Assembly (NCBI GenBank): GCA_914767715.1
Contig: OU612072.1
Location: 3,906,001-3,970,000, forward strand
Length of the DNA stretch: 64,000 nucleotides
Direction: 5' to 3'
DNA from: Membranipora membranacea
Taxonomy: Eukaryota; Bryozoa; Gymnolaemata; Cheilostomatida; Membraniporidae
Part shown: in pieces, positions 14,425 to 44,400 of the stretch
Layout: each line of letters starts with the position of its first letter
How positions within the stretch are numbered: the first letter of the stretch is position 1
The notes under the pieces: generated by a model
The model's input: the letters and a program-made list of their open reading frames with translations, nothing else
Told to the model about the DNA's origin: nothing
Databases searched by the model: none
Made by a program: the position numbers and the translations under genes

Positions 14425-17400
14425 ATGGAGGGGAAGGACTGTCATACTAAACACACAAAGGTTGATGACGACTCAGATCATGATAGTCTGAAAGAAAACC
14501 GACCACCTAACTATAAACAATCAAAAATATCCAAACAGGTATAGTTGCCGCATTATCCTGAACACTTTGAGACGGAGATGAAATATTTATAGTCATATTA
14601 GTCCAGGACATATATGAACTTTTATGTGTCCTGGCTAGTGAATAGACACTTTTTTAATTAGTTGCATTGTCTGACACATTATAAACTATTTTTGAAAAGC
14701 AGAATTCACTAATTCAGAAGGTCTCAGATTTAATTCAATAGCCATGAGTTTATAATGGTTTGTTGTTGAGTGGAAATTGGGAACTGTAAAGGTGGTAACC
14801 ATTTATTCTGACTGCTACCGCTGTATTAATCTTTGTGTTTGTGAAATGAAGTGAGATCAAATCTATGATAATTCAATTATCAGTTTGTTTAAATATACCT
14901 TATAGAATTCTGATTAGTTACATTAATTTGATATTCAATGTTATGTCTCGTAGCACTATATGTATATATATCTGATAGTCAAAGCGTAAAGTGGTGAGCT
15001 CTAGTAGCGATAACCTGAGTGATGTCCAGGAGGAGGATGAGGTTCGTCCGGCCAGCTCAGCCAGTAAGAAGTCTGCAGCTAGCAGCTCTAATAAATCAGC
15101 GGCGAGCGGAAAGTCACCGAACTCACCACAACCGCAGAGGAGGAGTAAGAAAAGTAAACTGGATATGACAGCTGATGATGTGGTGAATAACTATATCAAT
15201 GGTGACAAGAGTGACGATGATAAGTGAGTGTCAACACATATAGATATCTCAGTACATTCATGTATCAATGGTGATGATCAAAACGTACTGGCCCATGCAA
15301 TCGGATTGAATGGGCGGTGAGCATCAAAAAAGTCAACGGTATGATCTTTTGTAGGGGTGATTGTTTTGGTTACTCACAATTTCAAACAAAAACTCATTTG
15401 TCATTATGACAAGTATCTATAACCATTCTGTATTTCCCTTCAATCGTGCAATGAAAAGTTGTTGAGAGTGTTGTTGTCTGTTATGTCGATTGGTCAAATG
15501 TCTTCATGTACTTGTATTTTTGTAACATTGCTGATCATCACCGTACCGGATAATCTCGCATATTTATAATTTTATTCGCACAGTGATAAATCAGACTTGT
15601 CCAGCTCTGATTCCAGCAGTTCCTCGAGTAGTGACAGCTCCTCCTCTTCATCGTCTAGTGACAACGATCAACCCTCTCAGCGTAGTAACCAAAGCTCTGT
15701 GATAACACAACAAACTACCGAGGAGAAGGCTGGGAAAAAGGCAGCGGATATGAATGAAGATTTGGAAACTTTTTGTGATCAAGTGATGAGTGGGATTAGT
15801 AATAACGCTTCAAAAAAAGACCAGAGTGACAGTGACTTAGAACACAGTGGTAGTCGGAAAAATAAATCTAAAGCAAAGCGTAACCGAGTCGATTCAGATT
15901 CAGACAGTGAACAAAGTTCAAAATCTGTGACACAAAATTGTGATGTCAAGTCAAAAGAGAAAAGAGACAGCGATGGACAACAAAGTGACAGTCATACTGC
16001 TAAACCAGAGAGTGACTGCTCCCAAAAAGTCAAGTCAAGAAAAAAACTGAGTAAGAAAAGGAAGAAAATAAAAAAGGCTGTTGTGAGCGATTCATCAGAT
16101 GATAGTTCCTCTTCATCTGATGATGATGTTCCGGTAATGAAAGGCAAGAGAAAAAGTAAACTAAGGAAAACAATGGAAGACAATGACGCAGAGAAACAAG
16201 ATACAAATAGTCAAAAGGTAGGCCTGTATGTATCTAGACAAGCTCTTTTTATTGTATTCAAATACGGAGCTTGAAATCACAGTTATGTGCTTGATACTGA
16301 AACAAACTACTGCTAGTTTGCACCCACAGCAACAATCAGTATGAGAAACAAGGAACCCTAAAATAAAAATGCTAATATTGAGAGTAATAATACTATACAT
16401 ATCATCATGTATCCAACCAGTATACCAATGTGGTCGCGATGTGCATAGAAGTTAATGAGGTAGAAATTTGTTTAAAAAAATGATGTGATACTAAAGATGA
16501 CAAACAATACATCGTTACATAGAATTAGCTGAGTGTTTGGAACAACCAGAGCCGTTTTATGCTGTAAAGTGATTCTTTCTTGTGATGAAGACCATGTGCT
16601 TTCTGCCCTGACTGGTTTTCAGGGCTATTATGAGTTCCAGTGGCGTAGAAAACAGTAGTAATATTAGAGGAGTAGTAGGATTGCTACCAGACAATCAAGA
16701 CACCTCTTCTCTGCACTGTCTTCTTCTGCATGTATTTGATTGGATTGGAGTCTCAATAAGCATAAAATGTCATGTTTCATTCTATTTACTGGAGGGCTGA
16801 AAGTTCAATTTAAATATTCCTCCAAATGATATTTTTGGGTAGACTAGGCAAAATGCCTGTCATATCTAATATATAGCATTGCTCTGCTAGCCCTATATTG
16901 GTGTGATAGTTATGAAGTATATTGGTAATTTTGACCCTTTTGTGTTCATATTTTTCTAATAATGATCTTATTTTCTCAGATTTTACACAGTTCTGCGTTA
17001 GATCCGGATCTGTTTGATGCTGAGGGTAGTAGTGATAATGAGAGAGGAGACGCTGCCGGATCAGCTAAATCTGACTCAGAGCAGCAAAGTGACAGCGAGG
17101 AAGGAGAAACTGTCAACAAACTCAGCAAAAAGTTCTCAGGGGTCAGTTGACGTTGCCATCGATTACGTACAATTAGGTTAAACTACCAAAACACACAGCT
17201 TTGTGTGGTGTTGTGTGATATGGGATTTGGGTGAGGCTTACTGGCGTTTTTTAGTTATGGTACACCCTTCAAGTCTGACCTTTTACTCCATAGACAAAAC
17301 ACTATGTTTTACTCCTTGACCCGACATCACAAAATTGTTTCCTCTGATTCTCCTGTAATAGTTATGGTAATGATTTTTTCTCACATATTCTTCTTATGTT

Positions 17401-23400: not shown

Positions 23401-26400
23401 AAGTTTGGTACGAGGCGATATTTATAATATTTTACACATGGGGAATTCATAACGGCTGTTGGTAAGTTCATGCTACTTCCCAAAAAGAATTTTTGTTAGT
23501 GTCCGATGAAAATTAAGTTTACAGCATATCTAATCAGAAAATCAAACCATGTCCATTCCAACCCACAGAAATTCACAATATTGAATGTAAGATATAAATG
23601 GTTCGGAGAAACAACGAAGGTGTGGACGAATGATTCCAACTAAAATATGAATCAGGAGAAATGTATTATTAGCAGCCACACCGCCTCAAAATTAATACAG
23701 TCCTCATCAGTCAGAAGGCTGTTTTGAGCTATTCAAAGCCTCCGCTGTGCATGTTAGTTTTGTTCTGAAGATTTTGTTTTTCATTATTCGGCAACTGCCT
23801 AGAAGGTAGTTGCGCACAAAAATAGGTTATAAAGTGGGGGAAAGTTCGGGGTAAGTTGGGGAAAGTGGTTGTTAGCAACGGTTTGTTATTATCCGATACT
23901 TTCAAAACTTTAACCATGTTGATGTCATTATTAATGTTGAGAAACATGTAAACTTGGTTTAAGTTTGTTTATGGGTGAAATTTAGAGAAATTTGAAATGA
24001 TGCAAAGTTGGAGATGAAATTTTTTACGGGGCAATCACTTTGTAACACAAAGCTTGATGAAATCGCAAAGTAGTAATCCGTGGGAGATTACTACTAAAGA
24101 TGCCCGAGTTTCAAGATGTTTGATATAATTGACTGATATTGGTTGACGAAAAGAGACTGCATTTTAGCGATATTTACAGGAAAGCTTTATATGGACTGCT
24201 TTTATGGGATATTAGTAAATCTGTTTTTAGACCAGTGTAATATGACCTCGTTAAAATGATAGCCAAAATTTCATTTAGGAATCAAGAGAAGGTCCCAAGT
24301 CCATAACCTCTTAGCATCAAATACTTGAAGCTGAAATATAGAGATTGTATCAACAGCCCAGATTCAGGGCCCATCTACTTAATGTGGATTAATAATACAT
24401 TTAGCTCCAACTCCAAACTAAATCAGGGGAAAAGAATTATTAACAGCCTTGGCTCCTTAAAATTAATACTGCCCTCATTAGTCAGAAGGCTGATTTGAGC
24501 TATGAAAAGCCTCCCCTGCCTGTACTAGACTGTGATTCAGTCCAACAACTTGAAGTTATCTACTCAGGTTGGGTGTGTCGGTTTGTTGTTGTTGTGAGCA
24601 GATAAATCCACACAATAACACACCAAAATCCATCAGCCAATCAAAACAAAACCAAAACACAAGCGCATGGGCATGGACACTAACTAGTGATACATAAAGA
24701 CTTAGTTTGAGGGTAGGTTAATTATGTTAGGATTATGTTTCTTGACTTGATATCCCATGTGAGCAAGATACAGCAGGTGTAAACACTGATTTACAAGAGT
24801 TGTCATCTCTGGAAAAAAGTGGGTGTAACCCCCTTGGAATTATGTAACATTTGCAACATGGCCGATCACGTCACGTGATCATATTGTGATGACATACTAC
24901 GAGGGAATTAGCGAGCAAAGTTTTTTTCCAGCATCTCAGGAGTAGCCAATCAAAGTGTGTGAATTATAGCTCTATTTCCTCATTGATTGTAAACAAGATT
25001 GGTGAGGATGAGAATACCTCAACTCGCAATTTATTCACTGATCATTTGACATTAAAATTAAAAGTCATTCATCGACAAGAATCCAACAAAACGAGTCACA
25101 CATTCCATAGAACATTTAATTTACTCCTTGCTTTGTTATGTCTTCATCTAGTTCCTCCAGCCTTGAGGCCCTGGACAACCCTTGGGATTTGCAGCCTAGA
25201 AGAGTTGTTGCACAAAGGCTGCAAGAGAATGTTGGGCAGCAGGAAGAGCAGCAACAAGAAGAGATGCCACAGCAGGTAGGAAATAAAAATGTCACTTGAC
25301 TTGTAATTCCATTCAATAGCATACAGGGAATAAAATTTGTGGTATTGGTATGACAAAATTATTATCAACACTAAGCTTAGTAATTGGACAGGACAGAACC
25401 AATGAACTAAACCTTAGTTCATTGATTGAGGTTTAGTTCATTGACAGAACATAGACAGGGCTAGACAAAACTGTAACTTCATTATTGTTGGAGTAAATGA
25501 GCAGAGCACAGAAGGCTTGCTGTAGACTAATAGAGAGCGATCAACTATACGAAACACTGCAAGTGTTGGATGTTTGCATACAAGGAGTTACAGCTGCCTC
25601 CTTGGTGCATATACTACTGGCAGTCCATCGGTTCCGATGATGACTTCTGCTTCTGAATCAATTTGCGCTAACTCGCTCTGTTATTTGTCAGCTTCTGCCA
25701 ACCATTTGTTGGTAATGTCGAGATATTTGAGACTCCTCTTGACTGTGCCCTTGTATCGCAGCTTTGGTGTATATAATATATAATTATATATTATATCATA
25801 TCAAGGAGTAACTCCTCTATTCCTCCTTGATTATATATTATGTATATCTGTGCTGATTTTGTAGGAGCAGATGGCTGTAGATCTCAATCCAGAATGGTGC
25901 TTGTGTGGGAAGTGTCATGTGTGGCCCGATCACCACATGAATAACTGCTGTGCTACGCACAAGATTTGGGAGCAGAAGAGACCAGAGGAAGACATCAGGT
26001 GTATGGCTGACTCACAGGACGTACACGACCTCTTAAGACCTGCTCCACTGAGAGTTATGTACAGGAATTATGCCTGCCATCATCGTAAGTATAGGCAAAG
26101 AGTAACAGTAAGTTACTCCTTGGTACAGGCGCTCAGTAACTATTAGCGTAGTAATGTTGTAATAAGCAATTATTTTGCTGATCGCTCCCCAAAACAACAG
26201 TCAATTTAAATTAAACACACTAATACAGATCCAGGACTTGCCAAAACAATGCAAGTCAAAATCTGCTCATGTTTGTGTTGGGAGATAATTTTAATTGTGT
26301 GAAATCACTGGAGCACTCTTTATTGCAATGTGTGAGAGGTTTTTAAACCACTGATTACCACTCTCAATTTCCTAACTGTGTTCACTCTTCTGGCCTCTCA

Positions 26401-29400
26401 ATCAACCAAATTATTTGCTAACAGTTGAATGAAAAGGTTTCTTGTTCGATCAATGAAGGGATTTGGAAATGAGACCGGCAAGTCTCGCCAACTCAGCAAA
26501 GAGTGATCATGTAACAGAGATTTCAGAAGTTTTCAATGGAATTCAATATGAAATGTCTGAACTTAGCTTCATAATCTCACTACCAATATTTTTTTTTATC
26601 ATAGCTGAACGATATCCTGATGCGGAGACACTGGTCCCCAGTAATGTCTGGTCTGAAGACCAGATCAATAGATTAAAGAGGAGACAGCAGCGCCTAGCTG
26701 CATATAGATCAATCATCTTTTGGACGTTTCCAGAGATAAGGAAGAAAGAGAGAAGACCTCTGCCATCATGTATATACATGATGGTCAGAGCTTGCTATTT
26801 TGACACTGACTCTGATGAGGAGTTCGCCAATCATGACTTTTCTATATATATTCCCGAGACAATAAACTAAAAATCTTTTAAATTAATATTAAAATTAAAT
26901 ATTGTACCATCTGTTTAGTCAAGTTTTAAGGAGCTCATATTGTAAACCACCTTAATTTTTCTATACATGTAGATAGCATTATATCTAATTTCAATTCAAA
27001 GACTTTATTACTTTGCCAACTGAAAGTGCTAGGCATGAATACCGATGGTTAATACAAATCTTATTGTGCCAATGTATGTCCTTTAGCCACTTATGCTGCT
27101 CCAGCTTGGTTTTTACTGTGATATTATGCAATATTACTGGACATTACATTCTATTCTGACATTCAATTCCCTCAATATGTTTTGTCTGTCATAACAGGTT
27201 ACAATAATAATTTATTATAACAATTATAAATGTTCCGACTGTAACTATTTTTAGCAACCTTACACTCTTGACACTTTATGTAGCCAACTAAACCAAATGT
27301 GTGCATATTATTTGTCCACTGTACTAATCAAATTGCATCCCGTTTCTCTGTTAGTTTCTCTGTTAGCGTTAGATAGTAAGTTGTATAAACATAGTATGGT
27401 TGATAAACAGCATAATTTATTGTCTGGCTGATAGCCTTGTGAAACAGACTTTCGGACTGGCAGGTTTCCGTTAGGCTTTATGCGTTCATCCTAACATTTT
27501 GGATAGCAGGAACAATAAGCCTAGCCCATGCTGGCTATGCATAAAAAATCAAAGTATGGTTGATAAACAGCATGTCTGATTGCCTGGCTGATAGCCGTGT
27601 GGAACAGACTTTTTGACTGGCAGGTTTCCGTTAGGCTTTATGCGTTCATCCTAACAAGTTGGATAGCGGGAATAAATAAGCCAAGCCCATGCTTGCTATG
27701 CATATAAAATCATAGTAAAGTTGATAAACAGCATATTTTATTGCCTGGCTGATAGCCGTGTGAAACAGACTTTTCGACTGGCAGGTTTCTGTTAGGCTTT
27801 ACACGGTCATCCTAACAAGTTGGATAACAGGAGCAAATAAGCCAAGCCCATGCTGGCTATGACTATGGTTTCAAAATGAAAATGAACTGTGACAATAATT
27901 TCTTTGCCCTTCATCGGTGCTTTCCCCTCGGCTTTGGTTTTTTTAGAGATAACAATTACCTTACTCAACGGGAATATTTAAGCCAAGCCCATGCTGGCTG
28001 TCCTGACGAGGAAGAATTTCCCGACAATTTGATAGATAAGTAATAAGAACACTTAGTCTATTGTTTGGAATATAAGTATATAATGCACAAAACTGAAAAT
28101 CCCTTGACTATGTTTCAAAATGAAAAGTCATGATTTCTTTGACGGGGATTTGCCCTTCATCGGTGCTTTCCCCCTGGAAATGATGCAACAGCAGGTAGAA
28201 AATAAAAATGTGTAATTATATAGCGTACATGGAATAAAAATTGACTTGACTGTGTTTTCAAAATTGTTTTCACAATGAAAGTGAAAAGTCACGATGATTT
28301 CTTTGGCGGGGATATGCCCTTCATCGGTGCTTTCCCCCTGGAAATGATGCAACAGCAGGTAGAAAATAAAAATGTGTAATTATATAGCGTACATGGAATA
28401 AAAATTGACTTGACTGTGTTTTCAAAATTGTTTTCAAAATGAAAATGAAAAGTCACGATGATTTCTTTGACGGGGATTTGCCCTTCATCGGTGCTTTCCC
28501 CTTGGAAATGATGCAACAGCAGGTAGAAAATAAAAATGTGTAATTATATAGCGTACATGGAATAAAAATTGACTTGACTGTGTTTTCAAAATTGTTTTCA
28601 CAATGAAAATGAAAAGTCACGATGATTTCTTTGGCGGGGATATGCCCTTCATCGGTGCTTTCCCCCTGGAAATGATGCAACAGCAGGTAGAAAATAAAAA
28701 TGTGTAATTATATAGCGTACATGGAATAAAAATTAACTTGACTGTGTTTTCAAAATGAAAATGAAAAGTCACGATGATTTCTTTGACGGGGATTTGCCCT
28801 TCATCGGTGCTTTCCCCTTGGAAATGATGCAACAGCAGGTAGAAAATAAAAATGTGTAATTATATAGCGTACATGGAATAAAAATTGACTTGACTGTGTT
28901 TTCAAAATTATTTTCACAATGAAAATGAAAAGTCACGATGATTTCTTTGGCGGGGATATGCCCTTCATCGGTGCTTTCCCCCTGGAAATGATGCAACAGC
29001 AGGTAGAAAATAAAAATGTGTAATTATATAGCGTACATGGAATAAAAATTAACTTGACTGTGTTTTCAAAATGAAAATGAAAAGTCACGATGATTTCTTT
29101 GACGGGGATTTGCCCTTCATCGGTGCTTTCCCCCTGGAAATGATGAAACAGCAGGTAGAAAATAAAAATGTGTAATTATATAGCGTACATGGAATAAAAA
29201 TTGACTTGACTATGTTTTCAAAATGAAAAGTCATGATAATCTCTTTTACAGGGATTTGCCCTTCATCGGTGCTTTCCCCTTGGAAATGATGCAACAGCGG
29301 GTAGAAAATAAAAATGTGTAATTATATAGCGTACATGGAATAAAAATTGACTTGACTATGTTTTTTAAACGAAAAGTCATGAGGATTTTTTTGACAGAGA

Positions 29401-32400
29401 TTTGCCCTTCATCGGTGCTTTCCCCTTGGCTTTGCCTTTTTTAGAGGTAACAATTACCTGGCTCAAATTGTCATCTGCTGCAGCTGAGCTGGATCTTCCT
29501 CTACCAGGCTGTTTCTTAGGCTTTGGAGTAGCTTGCTGCTCTACTGCTTCAGCTGAGCTGGGTCTTCCTCTACCAGGCTGTTCTTTAGGCTGTGGAGTAG
29601 CTTGCTGCTCTGCTCCAGAGATATTGCCTCTGCCACGGCCGCGGCTCCGCCCTCGGCTTTCTGCATATCTTTGTGTCAGCGTAATGTGGTGAGGTTTTGC
29701 CAACCACCTCGTCTTTTTTTTTCCATTTCAGCCTCCACTTCTTCGATGGAATCGTATTGAGGTCCTTTAGACGCGAGTGTTGGAGGCTCAATATCATTGA
29801 GGAGAGGCCGTGTTCGGTTTTTTACATAACCATCCAGGCATTTGTACATGTCATCTATGTAACCTGTAACAATTAGATTGAATTAATTAACTTCTTGTAA
29901 AGTTGAGCGGACTTCCAGTCAAGTGTAGTAGGTTATCAATGTTTGCTGACTAACTACACCAGTTTGCAGTCTGAGCACTTGATGTCGGCTGGTAATGATA
30001 TTTGGGTGTTTCCGGTAGTTGTGGCTCCTCAAAATGACTAATAATACAACATTATGTTTTGGATGTTTCTGCAACTTGTTGTCTGGGGAAACTTTTTCAA
30101 TTTACCATTATTTCATCATGATAATGAATTTTGACTCACTGTATGTGGCATCCTCTCTTACAAACTGAACTGTCGGGGTTTGTTTGGTGGCTTTCGAGCG
30201 GTGTATTACTTTCCTCGGTTTGGTAGGATCACTTGCCATCATCTTTACCGACAGTTGGCAATTTTCGTTGTGTTGTAAAATGGTCAGCTGTGTTCTAAAA
30301 ATAAGTAGAGATTTATCAGATTATATTTATGAAACAACCAAGCGTGTGAATTTCGCAGTAATTTATTACTATTTTTCATGCTATAGACTACTAAGCACTT
30401 GTACAGACAGGTTTCATAAATAAAACCTGTCTGGTTCAAGTGCTTCGTTGGTGTTTAACATGAAAAATAATAAGATATTTCCGGAAATTTCAGTGTGATT
30501 CCCACGGCAATTTCAGTGTGATTCCCACGGCAATTTCAGTGTGATTCCCACGCTTGGATGTTGCAAAATCAATCACAAAATTAATCCCCAATCAAAGTAA
30601 ACTACCAAAAAGCTGTATGCTCGTGAGCCAATATATTGCAGTGTAGTTGGGTTATGTAAGTCACTAGTGGTCTCTAGTATATTTTTACATAATCCTTGTT
30701 GCTTTACTTTACTCATGGCAGTGGAATGGTGAACTTATGTTTGGCACTTTGGGATTAATCATGATTGACCAGTGGGCCTACTTACTTGGTGTTCCTAAGA
30801 TTTGTTACAACATATTACACAGGACCCACAACTATTATAGAAAAATTATCCCTGTTGTAATCCACATGCAGACGGCCATGTGTGCATACCTAGTGTGTAT
30901 AGTTAGCGCACCAGTCTGTGTAAAGTTCTTACCGTGAAAGCATTCCAGAGTAGGAAAACCCCTCCATTTTGGGTGCATTACGGTTGAGTTCGCCATGAAA
31001 GCTCTCCAACTCTCCTGTCGAGGTCCCACTGGCCATGTTTATTGCCTCCATAAACCCTTTCTCCCACAGTACCTTTCTCGTTTCCAAGTCAAGCTGCGTA
31101 TCTGTAATAAGGAATCACATGTGGCAACTTGATTCGTCTTTCAAAATAAATCATCGATTCAGAATTACGCATTTGTATGGCAAGTGCATAAGGAAACTTA
31201 TTGCAGAATTAGCCACGTTCAAGACAGGTGTCTAAATAGCACTTATTTGCTGATCTGTGGGCCTGTTTCCTTGCAAATCTGGGTGGAAAATGCATAATCA
31301 TAACAAACAGAGCAAAGGCTAATTCAAATGTCAACGAACCTGGAACAATCCACTCAACAACAAGTTCTTCCCCTTGCTCGTTGTACCGAACTTCTTCATC
31401 TGGGTGCTTACATTTTCCGATTCCGTCTCCTTCCAAGTCATGGATGTTGCAAATATGATTTGCGCATGACTTCCACCATGCCATCCGTTGGTCACCTGGA
31501 GCAGTGTTGGTGATAACATGCCATAGGTGGGCTATAATGGCTGGTATCCAGCGGCCAATTTGCTTGAACCCAACTTTCTTTGTGGACAACTTATTAAGTT
31601 TCTTCCGCAGTCCTACAACAGATTTGTTAACAAAAACATCAATAAGTAATCCATCAGATGAGGATAACTGAATTCATAGTCACAATCTATCTATTTTCAA
31701 AATTCATTGTCATTTAGTGTAGGATTACTTTTCATGTCTCCTGTCTACAGCAACAGCATTTATTTACTGCTTATTTGTGGTATTTCGACCAGGAAGAAAC
31801 CACAGTGTCATGTCTTGTTTACATTGCGATAATATGATTATGCTATGAGAGTAGGGTGCATTTATAATATTGTTATTGCGATGACTGTCTGCATGTGTGA
31901 TATGGATGGATAGATTTGGGTGATAAAATATTTACGCTGAGTTCTATTAGGATAGAAGCTTCTATAAACATGATACAGTGTTACTTTTTGAGATTCTAGC
32001 ATACCTTTTGTGAGATGCCAAGTATCAAAGTAGTGTTTGACAGCCTTCCAAGAATTCTTCATATACGCCTTCACACTGACGTGGCGGTCTGTTGTAAGCT
32101 GTTCGACAGCGACATTGTTTAGATCAAGATAGGCTCTACAGCGCTTTAGCCCCTCTAGTTCCATAGCTGAAGAGGAAGTTGTCTCTGTACACTGTGAGAA
32201 AAATAGATAGAAAAATGTGTTCATGCGCTAAAGTTTTGGCATCAAGTTATTCATAAAGCCAATGACGATCTTGTGTTATGTGTACACTGAAATAAATTCT
32301 TCTCATAGAACGGAATTATCAGGATAACCTTATACAGTTCGGACACTCAACACAGGGATTGATCTGACATTGATCTGATCGGCTGTCCCTGCTAGCATGA

Positions 32401-35400
32401 ATAATATAGCCTAGGAATTTATCTTGTTTTCAAAACTGCAAACAGTAATAAATTGCTTTCAGCGTCGATGATTTGGGCTTTTCTAGAATGCCACAGGGAC
32501 TGGCTATTTTTGCAAACCCGTTGTTGGGCAAAATAAAGGTAATTACACCACTCCAGCTATGGAGTTCAATGATTCTGTATCACACTGATGTCACCATCCA
32601 CATTTATCCAAAACAATTTAATTTTCACTGTATGATGCAAGATAACTTACCTTTACCAAACTGTTTGCAACAATTTTACTGGTTGCGGCACACATAAATG
32701 TGTAGATGCCATACATGGCACTGTGGCCAGGGGAGTCGAACCGCCCATCGCCATTCAGTTTTAGTGGCTGCTGTAGTTTGGCTCTCTCCTCCGCCATCCT
32801 CTTCTCATACACCTCCCTCACAACCTTAACAAAAGATAATTCAGACTATTAAAACCTGGAGATCCCTTAGTCAACGAAATAGCACAATGTAAATTCTGCT
32901 AAAAACCATCTCTGGCTACAGAAATCATAGATTTTTACTCTTTCAGCAATATAACATAATTAGAACTCAGAAGGCCACATCTGCCATATGTTGTAAACAC
33001 TATCACAGGTCATGGTCCATTCAGAGAACACTTAAACCAAATGAACATCGCTGACGAGTCTTCCTTGTTGAAATACATGGCTAAATATAGCTGACCTGAA
33101 TTTAAAATAACTCGGACTTCTAGGCGGCCTGTCGCCAGCCTTTTATATCTTATGTCACAACAAACAATCACTGTTATCATACACTGGTGGAGGGATATGT
33201 CAATACTTTTTGTCAATCATATGATTCCTTTTTATACATGTGCCTAATACCAATCGGTATCTTAGCTAATATCTCCAGTCATGATTATCTAGCTCCAATA
33301 TACACGCCGTAAAACCAATTCAATCTAACATTCCTGTCCTAAATGCGGTGCGTTATCTGCGTTATCGAACACAAATATTCACTTTATTTTTGACTGCTTA
33401 AATTACTCAAAATTCAGAGAGAAAACACTCAAAATAGATAGTATATCGAAACCATAAAACACAACTTTGCATTAAGGTGATGGATCTGGCTGACTTTATA
33501 AAGTTGTCTGATAGATTTACTACCATTATATACAAAATCAAATTTGTCCGCGGCCTTTGTAGACAATGAGTGCAATACATCACCATATTCGGAATGATTT
33601 ATCCCATTCCATCTCAATCCCCCTCACAAGACATAACATAATGGATCATAGCAACATGATTTCTTGGAAACTTGACTTACCCCGTGTAGATACTCCCGTT
33701 GGTATTTGAAGAATGTACCGGGGCTCACTGTGGAGACATTCAGGAAGTTGAAGGCTCGTAAAAATTTAGTCGGAAGGCAGCCAGTGAAGAGTATGGTGGC
33801 ACAGAGGAGGAGATTTAGAATGGGCACACCATTCACCTTTTCACTGTTAGCCCACTCTCTAACATGACCGCATTTGTCACTCTGGCAAGATATTTTGAAA
33901 GGCACGTAGCACCCATATGCCTGCTGCTGCTCCACCAAAGCCTCCATGCCACATCGTATACACGGCTTCAATAGTTGAAGTTCCCCTGTAAATATAAAAA
34001 AAACCTGTCAATATCCAACACAACATTGTAAGAACAATTTTCTAACCAGCTTTGTATATGTAGCTCCCTTGGAAGTGTTTACAGTTCATTTGATTTTTTT
34101 CTACAATTCATCGTTATGTTATTTCGCGACAATAAAAAAACGCAGTGTGTTATCAAAAAACATTATTTCAAATTCCCGCTACTTTTATAATGATTTTTTA
34201 TAGTAACTAGCATATTTTAAGAATTTTCGACTTTCTTTCGATCATTGTTTATTGAAGCACAAAACCATTACTTTTATCGAGGAATTTCATTTCTTGTCTG
34301 AATATATCAAATCAATAAAATAATTACACTCACAAAGTTTTGTACACTAATTCATTCTCCTCCATGTCATCTATGAACTGGACATTTTCTTCTGAGCTCG
34401 CCTCGTACTCAGAGCTGCCGTATTCATGAATCTGGTGAATACAAGGATATGCACTCAATACAGGTTTACATTTAAAACTTAGTATAGGGTATATGGAATC
34501 TTCATAAAATTGACTACATCCATAACCCGTTATTGCAGCCAAGTCCAATGATCTTCACAAGGAGTCTGGAATGACGCCCTGAGTACAAACATCTGTACAT
34601 GTGAGGGACTTAGACTAAACTGACATATTATGCTGATAGTTTAATCTGGATATCAGTGTGGCGTATAAAATCCATTTTTGAGGTTAAAAAAGGTGTCAAT
34701 ACCCTGCTGAATTTTTCACAAAGACAAAGCCAATCTTTTTGTGAGAACTCGACTGGTACTCACAGTAGGAGCTGATGATGATGATGAAGCTTTTTCTGAT
34801 GTGTCTGGGGAAGTATCTGGAGGATGATCATCAGCAGAAGGCCTAGATGGTGCAGGAACAATAACTATAGGTACTGGTTTAGCTGGCTGACTAGGAGATT
34901 TTATACTTTGTAGTCTTTTCACAGTTTTATTCTCTTCAAGTTCCTGTAGCCTTTTATCTGCTCTGGTCTCGCTGAAATTCTTTATACCAGTCCTAAAAGA
35001 AAAGTGTGGTTTCAAGTGAACCTGGTAAGTTCTTACATCCCCACTATGATGTTGGCAGACAGGATTACGTCATGTGATGTCAACTAATACAATACAAATT
35101 ATATAATAATGCATCACGCAGTGAATTGAATTAGAGCAGGGCTGCCCAACCAGTAACCCTAGGGCTGCATGCGGCCCCATTTTTATGCGGCCCTCAACCC
35201 TTTTGATAAAATCGCGTAGTAGCGAAAACAATTTTCACCCCTACGTTTATTACATTCGTCATTTGTACAATAATAAGGAAAGCTGTACATCTAGTCACAG
35301 TATTTTGAAATAAATTCCCCGCTGCAGAGATGGAATACTGCACACCCATATATGTGTGTTTAATTTATGGTGAGGTTGCGGGGGGGGGGGGGGCCCTCAA

Positions 35401-38400
35401 TGAAAAGGTTGGGCACCCAGAGTATCAATTTGACTTCATTAAACTGTGACAGTGCTTCATTCCAAAGGAGCGATGTGTTTAAATATGAATAATTAACTTA
35501 CTGATTATATTCTGTCTGTGTGTGGATATTTGCTTGTTTGACAATATCAACCTGGCAAGCTAAAAGAGATAATAATAGAAATAATAAATATAAGAACCAA
35601 ATTGAATATAGACGCAATGGGCAGGCGTAGGTAAAAAAGTTGTGTAGAAGATACAGCAGATATCAATAACAAACAGTTATCTAAATGAGAATGTAAATCA
35701 ATGCATGATGGGGAAAGCAATAACATATCACTTCATGTTCCGTAGTTTTCTATCAACTGGTTGGGTTAACATTTAGTCAGCGAGTTACAGCATTGCATGA
35801 TGCATGATTATTTTTATGAATGCTTTACTCCTCTATGGTATTAATACCTGTTATGAATACCATAGAGGAGTATCGTATTCGCATGATATAGATGCTTGAA
35901 ATTTCTAAAATTATTTCTATCAAAATTTTTCTCATCCTCTTTACTTTACGTAGACACCCACCCTAACTAACCAAGATCGATTGTTAGCTAACATTATGTC
36001 AAGGCAAGGCAAACAAATAACTTGCAGCAATATTTGAAAAAAAATCCTCGTTATGTCATCCATTCAAAATTTGTAACATAACTCCTGAGCAACCGATTAC
36101 CTACCCTGACTGTGCATGTGAACAGCACCATAAACTCTCAAAGGCACATCCACCATCCCTCTAGGTCGAGTTTGACTGTCTGTTTGTACAAGAGATCTCA
36201 AGAAGACTGGATTATCTGAAGATGGAGCAGGTGAGACTGAAATGGCGGGAGGCTGGTGAGTGGGAAGTAACATCTGTACTGGGTTGGTAGGGGTTGAAGA
36301 CGTCGGCACTGCCTCAGACAGAGTTGGTATTGTATGAACCAATACATCATCAGGCTCAACATTGGTCGGGGAAGACGGATACAAGTCCAGATTGGGCAGA
36401 CAGGGATCGGGGACTTGTGACTGCAATGGAGAGGGAAGGTCTGAGCTCATGTCAAGTGCAGGTGCAGCTATTCCAGTCACTGGGGTTAAAAGGCTAACTT
36501 CAGACACCTCAGTTGTTTCCGAGTAAGGTACTTCTGAAGGAGAGCCCGTCTGTTCTCCAATAACTAAATCGCCTCCCGTCTGCTGGTGTACATCTGACTG
36601 GCTACTTGTTCCCTCACCAAGTGCAAGCGCTCGTCGGGATTTCTTAGCTGACCTGTGATAATTTATAAGAATTTTTCATCAGAGTAAAATCATTAAAAGC
36701 TTGGAATATATTTAGTTGTGATTAATTAGCTAGTAATCAACTAGCTTAGAGGTTTCTTAGAAGGGAACCCTGCTAATAAATAAAAATATTTGCAATAGAT
36801 AAGGTGAGGGGTGGGTTTGTCTCATAATAATGGTACCGCACATTCAGCACTTTTATTAGTATTATATTAGTAAATTTTTTATATTCATATTTTTATATTT
36901 ATTATTTATCCAATCTAAAAATATCAGGCATCAGTTGGTAATAACATGTTTAGCATGTTATAAAGCTGGTATACCTCCTGATAGGCTTTGCTGTCAATGT
37001 GTTTTGATTAGCAGCTGCAGATTAATATGATTTATGTGTCAAACTTACGGCTCAGGGTCAGACAGAAGACTGCTAATGATAGACTCTCTCTCTTCCTTTG
37101 TAGGAGTAAAAACATGCTTCTTTCTTGGTGTTGGCATATCATCAGGAACCACATATCCCGGTAACACTTCCCTATCGGTGCGCAGGTACATTCTGATGGC
37201 AACAAGAAAAAAATTAAATGTTGTCAATGTGGCTATAAAAGTGCAGGTTATTCTAATAGGTGTAGTTTCCATATAGATCACTATTTTTATCAATCATAAA
37301 GGTCTAAACACACTGACAGTAGCCTTGTTCACACAGCCAGTTTTGACCAAAAAAACCGAAACCCATGGCCACGTGTACAAGGCTACACTGACAGAGGATC
37401 AGCAGACGCTTTTATGTTAGTAATGTGATGTCATGTAAACTGCTCTGCACTCTGAGGTTGCAGCTGAGGATAGGCTGAGGCTGCTGACACCAAATGCGTT
37501 AACAATGGTGACATATAGTTGTGATAACCTCTGATGTTACAACAGGTAAGTGTGTTTTGACCATGACAGGAGTTATGTGGAGAATTTCAGTCTTTGACTG
37601 TCATAAATATCAAATCCTGATGAAACGACATTCAATTCTCTAACTATGTTTTGTCTGTTATAATAATCCTTTATCATAACAATTAAATGCAATACTGTAA
37701 CTATTTTTAGAAATCTTACACCTTTCCCTCTTACAACTTGACAATTCATGTAAGCTAGCGGACTAAACCAAACGTGCGCATACTATTTTTACGATATTAA
37801 TAAAATTATATACAGTTTCTCTGCTAGTTTTAGATAGTAAGTAAAGTACAAAAATAAAATCATAGCATAGTTGATAAACAACATATTTTTAGGCCTAGCT
37901 GGTAGCCTTGTTATGAACAGACTTTTTGGCTGGCAGGTTGCCGTAAGGCTTTACGCGTTCATCCGTACAAGTTGGTGATTATGACTAATTAAGACAAGGC
38001 CATGCTGGCTATCCTAACTTGAGGTAGAATTTCCCGACAGTTAGGTGTAAAGTATTTGTATATTATATCCGTATCATATCCAAACATTCAAGAAAGCATG
38101 ACATTAAATGTAGTGTATGAAACAAAGGGGCAATGGTTTAACTGGATAAAAAAAAACCAAAGCATGTCACCGATGATGATCACTGTATAACAACTCACCT
38201 ATTCTCGGCTCCAAGAACATATCTGGTGTAATTTCTGATGTCCTCTTTGTGAAAATGTCTCCAACATAAACGACTAGTTTGGATAAGTTTGAAGTCTCTG
38301 AATGACTCACGGACCCAATCCACCCATTTTTGGCGAGTTATAGCATTGGATGGAAAAGTAAACAGGTGATGTATCTCCTCGCAGTTGGCAGCTGCACAGA

Positions 38401-41400
38401 AAAAAAACTCTTTTCTAGGCATCTGAAATAGAAAAATAATGATGGTAGTTATAACACCATAAATTTTTTATTGTTACTACTGGCATCGGGTTCCAGTGAA
38501 TAATACTTGCCAAGTCTCCCTATTTAGGTGGGACCCTCCAGATTTCACTATCACTCCAGATCTCACTATTTCCTCCAGATTGACAGTAAAACCACAGTTT
38601 TTTAGTAACTATCCAAGCACTTGTGATGTGTCCCAGGGGCCAATGTGTTGATGTAGTAAGTGCTCAGACTCGCAGGCGTAGGTTACCTGCGCAGGTTCCT
38701 GCGCCCTGGAGTATGAGCACTTAGACTCAAGTGGGCAGCCAAACCTTGTCAGACATATTGCCAAAATCCCAGGTTTTGGAGTAGACCTGCGCTCTGTGAT
38801 GGTCCCTGCTGTGCACACTAATTAATTCCAGAGCACAAGTACGACAAATTCATCATGATGAGCATTAATTGGCATTGTGTTGCTTTAAGACTAAGAACAC
38901 AGGTCTACTCCAAAATCCCAGGTTTTGGAGTAGACCTGTGACTAAGAATATAATAGTATTATCCAAGTGATGCCTAGTAGTCGTCTGGTGATACTAGTAT
39001 TTATTTATTTATAGAGATTTTCTTAAAAGTGTATAGATAACAAAAGGTAACTTGTTGACCTCTGAAAACAGAAAAAAACCTATCAAGCTTACTACCAAAG
39101 TTAAACACAATATTCACAGTATAATTCACCTCTCTTCACAATGATTGTCTTTGACTTTGAGAGAGAAGAGAGTGTAATAACAGGTTATAATCCGACAGAT
39201 TGTACCAACAAACAATAAGTGAATATGTGTTAAGTGTTAGTTCAACCTTATTTTAAAACTAGTCAGCCACATCCATGTGAATTTCTCAACACTATGACAG
39301 AGAGACGACTGCTCTTTTGATTATGAACAAATCTCCTGGGGTGCGTCACATCCGGTGCTTTATCACCGTGGTTACAAGTAAACTTTTTGACGGATGACAT
39401 CCGGCTGGTTCCCAAGGTGAAATGATGGCCATAACTCCAAAACTTCAGGACCCCACAACTTCAGTTTGTTGTGATTTCACAGGCTGTATCTTGCTCACAT
39501 GACAAATCAAGTCCTGAAAAAGAATCATAAATTAATTAACCTGCCCTCAAACAAAGTCTATAAGTAGATAACAACACAGAAGCAATATCCAACATCACCA
39601 ATAATGCAGACAAGGCCTCATTGTTGGCCCGAATCCCAGGCTACCCCTGTACATGAACATGTTAGAACTCCTGGAATCTGAAGATTAACTCACAGAGTAA
39701 GGATAGATATCCTTACTCTGTGATTATGTTTTGCTTTATTCGGCATCTGCCTAGAAGGAAGTTGCGCACAAAAATAGTTTTAAAAAAGAAGGGGGCAAGT
39801 TAATTGAGATAAATGTGTGTTATTATCCGATGCCTTCAGAACTTTCACCACGTTGATGTTATTATTGATGTTGGGAAATATCGTAAACCTGTGCCATGTT
39901 TCGTTATCGGCGAAATTTAGAGTAATTTGAATATGATGTAGTTGGTGATGAAATTTTCTGCAGGGCATTTATTTTGAAACACAGAGCTTGAAAAAATCGC
40001 AAAGTTTTTGTTTGAGGGAGGTTACTACTAAAGATGCCCCTAGTGTAAAGACGTTTGATATAATGACTGATAATTGTTGACTATATTTAACGTTATTGGC
40101 AGGAAAGCTTTATTTCATGTATTTGGTCTACTATCATCGGGCTTTGAATAGTTCCTCGTTAAAATGATAGCCAAAATTTCATAAAGAAATCAAGAAAAGG
40201 CTGGAAATCCATTCCCCCTTAGCTTCAATTGTTTGAGGGCTGAAATTGACAGATTGAATCGTCTCCAATAACAATCCAGATTCAGAAACAAACAAAAATG
40301 CAAAAAATCAGACTATTGCAATGGAATAAATAAATGTTGCAATAACACTTTTTTTAAATAACTACAGTAATGTTGATTCTCAATGCAGCGGGTAGATAAT
40401 TGACTTTGTTAAAAATTTTATACACTACACACACACATTAGAACCAATAAAAACAGAACATACTCTCCTAAAGCTATTATTGACTGATACCACTCCAAAC
40501 AAGTGCAGAACAACAAAGCGACAATACTTTTCTTGAATACTGTAATATGGGTTCTTTTTTCCCTCATCTCAATACACTTAACCTAGGAATTAGGATTGAT
40601 TGCCGAGAAATAGCAATAAACGAACTATAACTATAACTTATTTGTAGAAGAGAGTCCGCGCTGTCCTCGAATCAGATGATGAAGACGACATATCACAATC
40701 TAATGATGTCATCACAAACCGCGCACCAAATAATGATGATGTCACTAAAAATGGCGATGATGTCATCGATTCCGACAGAGCACCTGTTGATGCAGTTGAC
40801 AGTCAGGAGACTGACAGCCAGGCATGCAGTGAGACCCACACTCAGCATACTAGGATTAGAAATAACAGCCTACAGAAGGACACTAACAGGCTGGCAGGTT
40901 AGTCGCTGGTAGGACAGCATCTATATGTCAGATTCGTCCTGGATCTACCTTCCTTACAATTTTCTTTTTTACTCTTTAAAATATGGTCTATAAATAGAGT
41001 CGTTTAGTCAATGACTTATACTTTTGTCTCTTATACACAGATATACTCTGTGATAAATAACTTGTACAAACAAACTCTAGATCAAATTTTTATGGCCTTG
41101 AAATACTTTGGGTGTCTATAACTTTATTATAGCTGAGTAGAAACTTTATCAATATGTCTCCCTCTTTAAGACAAAAAAGTAAAATATGCCCGTAGTGTGA
41201 AAGCAACCTCTCTACCACTATATGTATGTTTCAGATTCTAAAATGCTGGACAGTTTAGATAGGATACTAGGGTTAAATACACAGTCCGTCTCTAACTGTG
41301 ATGATACTACCCAGCCCAGCCGCACTATGTCTGTCAGGTGAGTGAGAGGAATGAGGGAGGGGAGTAGAATGGCTATTAGCCATATACTATTAGCTGAATT

Positions 41401-44400
41401 TCTTCATTATCATTCATTCTGAATAGGCAAACTATTGAAACCCTCACCTAATATAAGGATCATTTATTAATCAATCCCATATTGTATATTACAATGATGA
41501 GTGATATACAATCTTGCCTAAGTTGTCTGATCTTCCCATGTAAGCACTTACACCATCAGCTGTAGAGAGTTGCACCTCCCCTGTTTTCACATATTTATAC
41601 AGTTATACATTATTTGTACAGGGTACCACAGGCTATAGATGAGAACGCTATGGACCTGAACAGTAAATTTGGATTCTTTGACGACTCCAGTGCTAAACCA
41701 GGTTTGTGTTAATACTAGGAGTTGTCTCATTTCATTTTAGGTATCATTTATTGCATTTATTATAGTTAATTTAACTGGCCACAGGAGCTCAGTATACACA
41801 TGTCGCAACGGAATAAATATGTGTGTCACGATATATACTCATTATTTTGATAGACAGACATGTAATCCTGAGAAGTTACTGTTGTATATGTATGCGGGCC
41901 TTGTGTGACCAAGTGATTAATGCAATATAATGATATAATTATCAAAATTGCCGCCTGCGTTAATTTAGCTTCAATTCCGTTGCCTTCCCCTTTGTGTTAC
42001 ACCATTCACCAACACTACTCAATGGACTGTATCATGTTAAGTATGGGCGGGTCTCGGTACTTCTGGTGAAAGACAAATTCCATCGATTAAGTCTGGCTGA
42101 GTGAGTTATTATCATCAATCTATGATTACAGATTCTAAGAAGCAGCCGACACCCGGAGAAGGCGATGCTGCCGCTGCCGGTACTGATGGATCTGGAGGAG
42201 GAGGAGTGTTGTTAGGATTTACACATGATATGTTTAGTACACAGCAGGCTGAAGATGAGGTATTAGGTCTCTGCTCAGGAACGTTCACTGATTCACAACA
42301 ACAGCAAAACTCCTCACAGAAGCTGAGAGAATCTCAGTGTAACAGTCAGGAGAGGTGAGGGTTAGATCAACAAGAGAGGTCTCTTACTCTATGCCTTGTT
42401 TTCTGTTTACACTCTGCTTACTAATTAGCATAACCTTATAGATTTATGGTGTTTGTTGGGAGCAAACTAAGGTTGTGAGCTCCTGCAGACGGCCATAGCT
42501 CCCTCTCATCGTATTCGGCTCCATGAGTTGTTTCCTCACACCCCTCCCACCCGCATAACCAAGCATGTCAGCATACACGGTCGAGACTGTCAAGCATCTC
42601 ATCTAATCACATCAGGGACTGATGGTACCCGGTGCTTGTCCCCTCATCCATAGTCGATAGAGCCTATGTATCGGCTGACTAATATGTGATTATGTGCATG
42701 TGATTATATGTGTGTGATAAGATGATTGGATGCCTCATCTCTTATTTATCAGTGATAACACACCACCAGCTCCATTAACTGAACCGTTCACTGTGACAGA
42801 GGAGAAGGGGGAGAGTGTCAGAGATCCTACTACTAATAACGCTAGTAATATTACTAACGGTGTAACAAAGTCCTTGTAAGTCACTATAATTGTAACTAGG
42901 CTGAATAAGTCAATCTCTATAACAGATGACCACAGTTATGCTTCTACTGGCGATCGCAACAGAATTTATGGAAAACAAATCGATCAGATAGTAGCCATAT
43001 TTGAGGCCAATGATTATTTCTGTATTGTCGGAATTCAATTTTTACATAATTTTTTCAACCTATCCATACTACTCTCACGGCGAGATTCTCAAGTTTGACA
43101 CATTGTGACCAATTAAGTCTGCTGGAAGACTATAGCGGACTCTACCAATTATGATGTTGAGCTTGTTTTAGTGCATAAACTATTGCAGCGGTGGCCGCGG
43201 TAATAATATTGAAGCAGTATTGAACCTGCATTGGATGTTTGTTGTAAAACGTAACGAATAGAATTAATTCCTTTTTTGATTTTGTCTAGTGAGGGTAATA
43301 AGAAATCAGATGACATCACCAATGATACTGACAGCAGTACTAAGATTACAGCTGCCGGAGTAACAGTAGTTAAACAGAGGCGTCAGGCTCTCAAATTCAG
43401 TGATGATGAAGAATCTGACAATGAAACTAATCAACAACAAGGTAAAGGCTATTATCTATCTGATTAAGTAAACATGGGACAATGTTAATATACCCGAGAA
43501 GAGTTAACACTGCTAGAGTTGAGATTTGATAGTTTGGGGGTCACCTGATGACGACTGGCACCGAATTTTGCTAGCTAAGGGGGAGAATAGACAATAGAAT
43601 TCAGTTGAAGCTTTTCAATTTTACTTTAACTAACATACTTATTGAAGTTCGCGCAAAACAGAGCGATTCCGTGGATTGAGCTGAGTTATCACCTCTTGGC
43701 TCGCCCTCAAGATATGCATCCATGTCCATGGACCTCAAAAACATCCGCCCATGTCGGGAGTCTTACTCTAATCTCCAGAGCTGCAGTCTTTGATGCTGAC
43801 CATGCGGGCTCGCCGTAGTTTGATCTAGCACGAGCTGAATCTTCAAGCTCAGTGCCAACCGTAAGGCATTCCCATGGTTCGCACAGCTCGGTAATTTGCT
43901 CAGTGCTCAGCTCAACCTCATAGAAACATAAAAGCCTACCACATTGTCTGACATTGGTATCAATGAAACCACATAGCAACAAGATATTGCTTATGAACAA
44001 CTTATCAAATTACAGGGGACGATGTTGATGGCGATATCGCTGATGAGTTTGATGATGATTTAGATGAGCTGGCTGATGATGAGGAAGATGATCTTGATGA
44101 GGTTTGTATAGCGTACTAAAATTTTTATTTGAACTCTCAAAGTTTCAAATCATAGCGTTGTTACATCCTTTGCTAGGATCATGCGTCTTTTGGTTGAGTC
44201 ATTGATACAGGCCGTTCAGTCATTAAGTTTTCGAAGTTGGACTAACTTAGCAAACGTTGCAACTAGATGAGATCTTATTATTGTCACTGGTTCCCTCATA
44301 TGCTTGTGTACTATCTTGAAAAATACTCATGCATGCTATAAATGTATTGCCTAGCAGAGCACAACCAAAGTTTGTGGTAGACTGGTGCTCTTATCTCTCA

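Follow-up and report, generated by a model that had tools for sequence, protein, structure and literature searches.

Does a gene resembling the intracellular tail of the P2X7 receptor belong to the transposon inside which it seems to lie and, if so, what could its role be there? The question is raised by a 64,000-nucleotide stretch of chromosome 8 (C8) of the bryozoan Membranipora membranacea (GenBank assembly GCA_914767715.1, contig OU612072.1, positions 3,906,001 to 3,970,000; hereafter the window, whose own numbering is used below). A sequence-only reading of this stretch had described two intact-looking, convergent, multi-exon genes between inverted arms inside a Claspin intron, one coding for a THAP plus DDE transposase with Kolobok-like blocks and the other for a free-standing P2X7-tail-type domain, and had raised the possibility that the domain travelled with, or came from, such elements and that it might act on nucleic acids or as a partner of the transposase. 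The structure is very probably a Kolobok DNA transposon of the Kol0 type that carries two genes, KolX among them, has moved recently and lies within an intron of what is probably Claspin. KolX is the name of a second protein that Kol0 elements encode and that resembles residues 476-595 of human P2X7 (PMC9587614), and the P2X7-tail gene of the window is called by this name here.

Two inverted arms, 81% complementary (24691-24786 and 39471-39566), frame the 14,862 bp of the element (24698-39559), whose imperfect terminal inverted repeats of about 90 bp give it the ends AGACTTAGTTTG...CAAACAAAGTCT. Between them lie, as the sequence-only reading had it, two convergent multi-exon genes: KolX, with 3 exons on the + strand, and the transposase, with 13 exons on the - strand, every modelled intron of both being of the GT...AG form. 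The element is placed between exons of one surrounding gene, as had also been claimed; the name given to that gene is only probable, as we take it to be Claspin from motifs only (e.g. one near 42272).

The other copies of the element bear directly on the membership of KolX. The leftmost 2 kb and rightmost 1.8 kb of the element were used to search the 339.3-Mb assembly, 40 candidates being scored for each, so that the counts are lower bounds. At least 14 loci, the window included, carry both ends, with matched end pieces 91-100% identical, which is far beyond chance; the transposase core is present at all 14 (nearly whole at 13, in pieces at C7:5319674). KolX exon 2 and/or 3 was found at 13 of these loci, mostly on other chromosomes, and the fourteenth (C7:23258808) has KolX exon 1 only. 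As KolX exons recur between the same ends at 13 of 14 loci, KolX belongs to the element, and what had been argued from position is borne out both by these copies and by the convergent pairing in diverged families described below. A situation in which copies of the transposase are never accompanied by the P2X7-tail gene was looked for among the two-ended copies and did not occur. That the P2X7-tail gene is instead a host gene of the Claspin intron, alongside which a transposon landed, could be argued from its position at this one locus prior to examining the other copies; since the gene repeats together with the element, this explanation was rejected and is scarcely credible.

Eleven of the 14 two-ended loci (the window copy and ten others, the latter 13.1 to 18.0 kb long) were compared end to end. 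The termini are AG...CT (RR...YY) in all 11. The anticipated TTAA target duplications are present on both sides of all ten other copies, as established by comparison among copies rather than between filled and empty alleles, but the window copy has ATAA on both sides. In eight copies the coding sequences diverge on average by 0.16% (KolX) and 0.31% (transposase), and divergence this low indicates that the family has been recently mobile. KolX is open in 7/11 copies, the transposase likewise in 7/11, and both genes are open in 4/11. The intact appearance of the two window genes holds for KolX, which is open over all of its 207 codons (207 amino acids), but not for the transposase, which is broken because of a 47-bp deletion in exon 7, causing a frameshift, and an exon 13 that is one base short. 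The window copy would presumably be movable only by transposase from other copies.

In open copies the transposase is 1032 amino acids long (1009 in one). The Pfam test was made with the first 933 amino acids of the copy on C2, which pass the cut-offs of both the THAP model (PF05485, 29.6 bits, cut-off 23.9) and a model named 'Mutator' (PF20700, 37.9 bits, cut-off 26.5). DTWH (a DxxH motif) is followed by a zinc-finger-like block, HLWH...CANH, and then by GELESFHGE, so that both the THAP domain and the Kolobok blocks originally described are present. The catalytic acidic residues are probably the D of RFDSPGHS (first), the D of TTDRH (second) and the E of GELESFHGE. The name of the best-scoring transposase model, and the fact that TTAA is shared with piggyBac, might be taken to place the element in another THAP/DDE group (P) or among the piggyBac elements. 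We find this very improbable, as RR...YY ends, THAP, DxxH and an H2CH-like block are all described features of Kolobok (PMC9587614, PMC6004289), and as the piggyBac model (PF13843) has no match inside the element, its match nearest to any of the 52 places in the genome with a P2RX7_C (PF20478) match being 52.9 kb away. The same distance led us to reject piggyBac as the carrier of those P2RX7_C genes that have no PF20700 or window-type transposase nearby. Among 22 further KolX-like places, one is 8.5 kb and another 26 kb from a piggyBac match (58 of 95 KolX-like rows, one per locus, entered this proximity count).

The bryozoan element is very probably a new family of Kol0-type Kolobok, and the link between the P2X7 tail and transposons was already published in 2022. 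Like Kol0 (Kolobok-1_XT type), it encodes a DDE transposase and a KolX with similarity to the P2X7 ballast, and it shares with that lineage TTAA duplications, RR...YY ends, the DxxH signature and a zinc finger between DxxH and E (PMC9587614). It differs in the ATAA of the window copy and in the long tandem arrays between its genes. Vertebrates, annelids, cnidarians and sponges are given as examples of Kol0 hosts, Bryozoa being unnamed in the part of the source at hand, and no statement on the strand arrangement of the Kol0 genes was found in that part, which does not extend to Repbase or the supplements (PMC9587614). Xenopus Kolobok elements, with listed lengths of 6.8-13.9 kb, have the same THAP + DDE + H2CH transposase, AG termini and TTAA as the bryozoan element, and ATAA flanks one of the listed copies on a single side, compared with both sides of the window copy; a second gene is not mentioned in the accessible portion of that paper (PMC6004289). 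In KolobokP, from the same superfamily, the transposase gene is followed downstream by an accessory gene in the opposite, hence convergent, orientation, and a convergent second gene is therefore not new as a layout (PMC9587614). Long terminal direct repeats (~450 or ~660 bp) and a His-Me nuclease are further features of KolobokP (PMC9587614); in the element described here, no direct repeat at the two ends was found among the repeat families listed (20 out of 23), and the Pfam matches of KolX and of the transposase (first 933 amino acids) included no His-Me family.

The KolX of the window passes the cut-off of the Pfam P2RX7_C model (PF20478, 28.7 bits, cut-off 23.5), and the free-standing P2X7-tail-type domain was thus correctly recognized from the sequence. 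Seven of its nine cysteines (C58, C60, C63, C74, C75, C92 and C175) fit the ballast pattern by eye. R149 and R181, invariant in our alignment A1, align with R546 and R578 of rat P2X7, which are its two GDP-contact residues and are conserved in invertebrates (PMC7016195). In its putative zinc-binding cysteines, its equivalents of R546 and R578 and its C-terminal position, the domain resembles the P2X7 ballast and ZCD proteins such as nanor (PMC7016195); P2X7 is a membrane channel, whereas KolX here is a transposon-encoded protein of 207 amino acids. Three observations weaken this assignment: alignment A1 positions the middle cysteines otherwise than the reading by eye, the window KolX on its own matched no P2X7 chain in PDB, and the profile that gave the P2X7 match was built from four sequences, three of them other genes. 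A protein database search with the window KolX gave a single match (P0001), and hence little information on animal relatives.

The pairing of the two genes extends beyond the family found in the window. The gene pair also occurs at five places, convergent in all five, in a second family, whose identity is 56-64% in transposase pieces and 42-69% in KolX pieces. A first genome-wide tally used 55 of 96 KolX-like rows (one or two per locus), yielding 54 places, many of them copies of one family, and 112 merged transposase places. Of the 54, 28 were within 20 kb of a transposase, against about 1.3% expected from uniform scatter, many of these 28 being window-family copies. Only 2/47 places recognized by the Pfam model alone were as close to a detected transposase, both at 17.2 kb. 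Most of these places looked like lone genes for that reason, but the shortfall was largely a detection failure, as a diverged Kolobok tail matches no Pfam model. Such an undetected tail lies 1.2 kb from one of these genes (L049, with L051 as its neighbour), and in a single comparison it is 34% identical over 47 amino acids to the window-type transposase tail (E 1e-8). When that tail was used as a query (all 52 P2RX7_C rows against 40 of 43 tail rows, second pieces of a locus being dropped), 26 of the 52 P2RX7_C places had a Kolobok-type tail within 10 kb, the farthest at 3.7 kb, and all 26 pairs were convergent. In 1000 trials of random placement under that limit the mean was 0.19 and the maximum 3, a control that ignores copying as a unit. 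By tail identity the pairs form about four groups (10, 5, 7 and 4 pairs), and within each group the pair of P2RX7_C gene and transposase moves as a unit.

The generality of this pairing is tempered by several points. The 26 pairs are not independent events, because they are copies of about four groups; for the other 26 P2RX7_C places the search located no such tail up to 10 kb away; and the family of L049 is without the N-terminal cysteine cluster. A THAP match lies no farther than 15 kb from at least five of the 26 unpaired places, convergently at four of them and divergently at the fifth, two of the five sharing one match; all 150 rows of a THAP list in which 150 of 283 candidates were scored were used, and the random control had a mean of 0.44 and reached 5 in none of 1000 trials. 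The remaining unpaired places may represent undetected transposases or tamed genes.

Some of these loci deserve separate mention. L051/L049 (C6:14082200-14084700) and 13 other near-full copies make up another mobile family, with a single-exon P2RX7_C open reading frame convergent with a Kolobok-type tail. L047 (C1:36470200-36471200) and L050 (C8:25402000-25403000) are ballast-domain genes in single open frames. No transposase was found near these two or near C8:25361374 and C8:25571910, and all four are candidates for tamed KolX genes; L050 and the other two C8 loci lie within 211 kb of one another. Unlike the convergent pairs, C11:4821473-4822154 and C11:4888648-4889296 each have a PF20700 match and, 26-29 bp beyond its end, a KolX-like match in the same orientation, possibly a fused or tandem arrangement.

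What KolX does for the element can be approached through its pairing and its constraint. By inference from the family, the THAP domain would bind the element ends, and the RNase-H-fold DDE core would excise the element at AG...CT and insert it at TTAA by cut-and-paste; KolX could then be a cofactor in the assembly or regulation of the transposase-DNA complex. The convergent pairing of KolX with the transposase suggests a partner function, and we lean, if only slightly, towards KolX being a zinc-binding, perhaps also guanine-nucleotide-binding, cofactor of transposition rather than a passenger. Between the two families, KolX exon 3 (84 codons) has a proportion of silent differences (pS) of 0.91, i.e. 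saturated, and a replacement divergence (dN) of 0.28; for two exons of the transposase, of 91 and 116 codons, pS is 0.81 and 0.76 and dN is 0.26 and 0.34. A functionless host gene captured by one transposon would account for the near-neutral pattern among recent copies and for a KolX broken in 4/11 of them, but it would leave unexplained the same orientation in at least three diverged families and a dN far below the saturated silent divergence (dS), and we consider such a passenger quite improbable.

The preference for a cofactor has to be set against other observations. In the copy of the second family from which dN was computed, KolX exon 2 contains stop codons. Among the eight recent copies, KolX and the transposase have ratios of replacement to silent proportions (pN/pS) of 0.72 and 0.62, pointing to little or no constraint at that time scale, the KolX pairs averaging 0.25 silent and 0.75 replacement differences. 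Moreover, KolX is broken in 3/7 of the copies whose transposase is open; KolX may be dispensable in cis, or these copies may have decayed after insertion. A cofactor acting in trans would be compatible with the constraint between families, the weak recent constraint and the copies with broken KolX alike. The broken KolX genes beside open transposases would also suit a KolX that, while part of the element, acts on the host (e.g. by dampening silencing or sensing nucleotides) and not in the transposition reaction; it forms a separate convergent transcription unit, and constraint between families fits any useful role. However, diverged families keep the two genes paired in one fixed orientation, which a direct partner would explain at least as well, and an action on the host seems to us rather unlikely.

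That the domain derives from such elements, as the sequence-only reading had considered, agrees with our data and is already in the literature, P2X7 having been traced to a P2X4-like gene that fused with KolX (Kojima & Bao 2022, PMC9587614). Two markers linked to P2X7-tail genes from sponge to sea urchin were reported by Rump et al. (2020), along with an Ixodes protein that joins a 'TAHP' domain (taken here as THAP) to the ballast domain (PMC7016195). This synteny could reflect neighbouring Kolobok transposase genes read as markers. Extending this tentatively, free-standing invertebrate P2X7-tail genes might as a rule be one half of a convergent Kolobok pair and the 2020 synteny the same pair, a generalization that we think somewhat likelier to fail than to hold; if true, the ballast domain would be an ancient nucleotide- and zinc-binding transposition cofactor that was later fused to a P2X4-like channel. 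The origin of the domain is thus not a new claim. What the bryozoan data bring is independent confirmation, in a phylum unnamed for Kol0 in the available part of PMC9587614, that transposons carry the P2X7 tail domain as one of their genes. They also bring a clean set of elements, with young copies, some retaining both genes open, and convergence in at least three diverged families, which makes the role of KolX in transposition directly testable. The features of the window copy are listed in Table 1.

Table 1. Coordinates of the element and its two genes in the window
Feature	Position	Strand	Remarks
Left target-site duplication	24694..24697		ATAA (TTAA in ten other copies)
Left terminal inverted repeat	24698..24788	+	Starts AG (RR); inner limit approximate
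KolX coding exon 1	25138..25275	+	46 codons; boundary set by GT donor, not transcript
KolX exon 2	25865..26084	+	Zinc cluster CxCGxC...CC...C
KolX exon 3	26605..26870	+	C-terminal half of ballast domain; stop 26868-26870
Repeat arrays between both gene ends	27354..29506		~161-bp and 164/152-bp units; length differs among copies
Transposase exon 13	29377..29863	-	Basic GRGRG/KGK tail; one base shorter than in 9/10 other copies
Transposase exon 12	30140..30294	-	
Transposase exon 11	30933..31101	-	Probable catalytic E (GELESFHGE), assigned by inference
Transposase exon 10	31340..31612	-	HLWH...CANH zinc-finger-like block, between DxxH and E
Transposase exon 9	32005..32191	-	Probable second D (TTDRH); DxxH motif (DTWH)
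Transposase exon 8	32651..32824	-	Probable first D (RFDSPGHS)
Transposase exon 7	33681..33985	-	305 nt, 352 nt in ten other copies
Transposase exon 6	34334..34431	-	
Transposase exon 5	34764..34992	-	
Transposase exon 4	35502..35559	-	
Transposase exon 3	36105..36652	-	
Transposase exon 2	37049..37192	-	
Transposase exon 1	38199..38422	-	THAP domain
Right terminal inverted repeat	39470..39559	-	Ends CT (YY); inner limit approximate
Right target-site duplication	39560..39563		ATAA

The final portion of the transposase coding sequence is found again, as a copy, in the 164-bp array units. In the part of the array at 28101-29506, which varies among copies, every tandem unit carries a copy of the last transposase coding segment, and the array therefore appears to have grown from the 3' end of the transposase gene. 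Internal direct repeats, about 74-90% identical, flank the transposase body at 27158-27999 and 37627-38012; the right one is probably an unrelated dispersed repeat, because 37800-38040 matches dozens of places in the genome. Outside the element, 23770-24328 recurs at 39722-40236 as direct repeats (79-88% identical, offset 15908-15952), and since sequence of the left flank is thus repeated on the right flank, the element seems to lie within or beside an older repeat.

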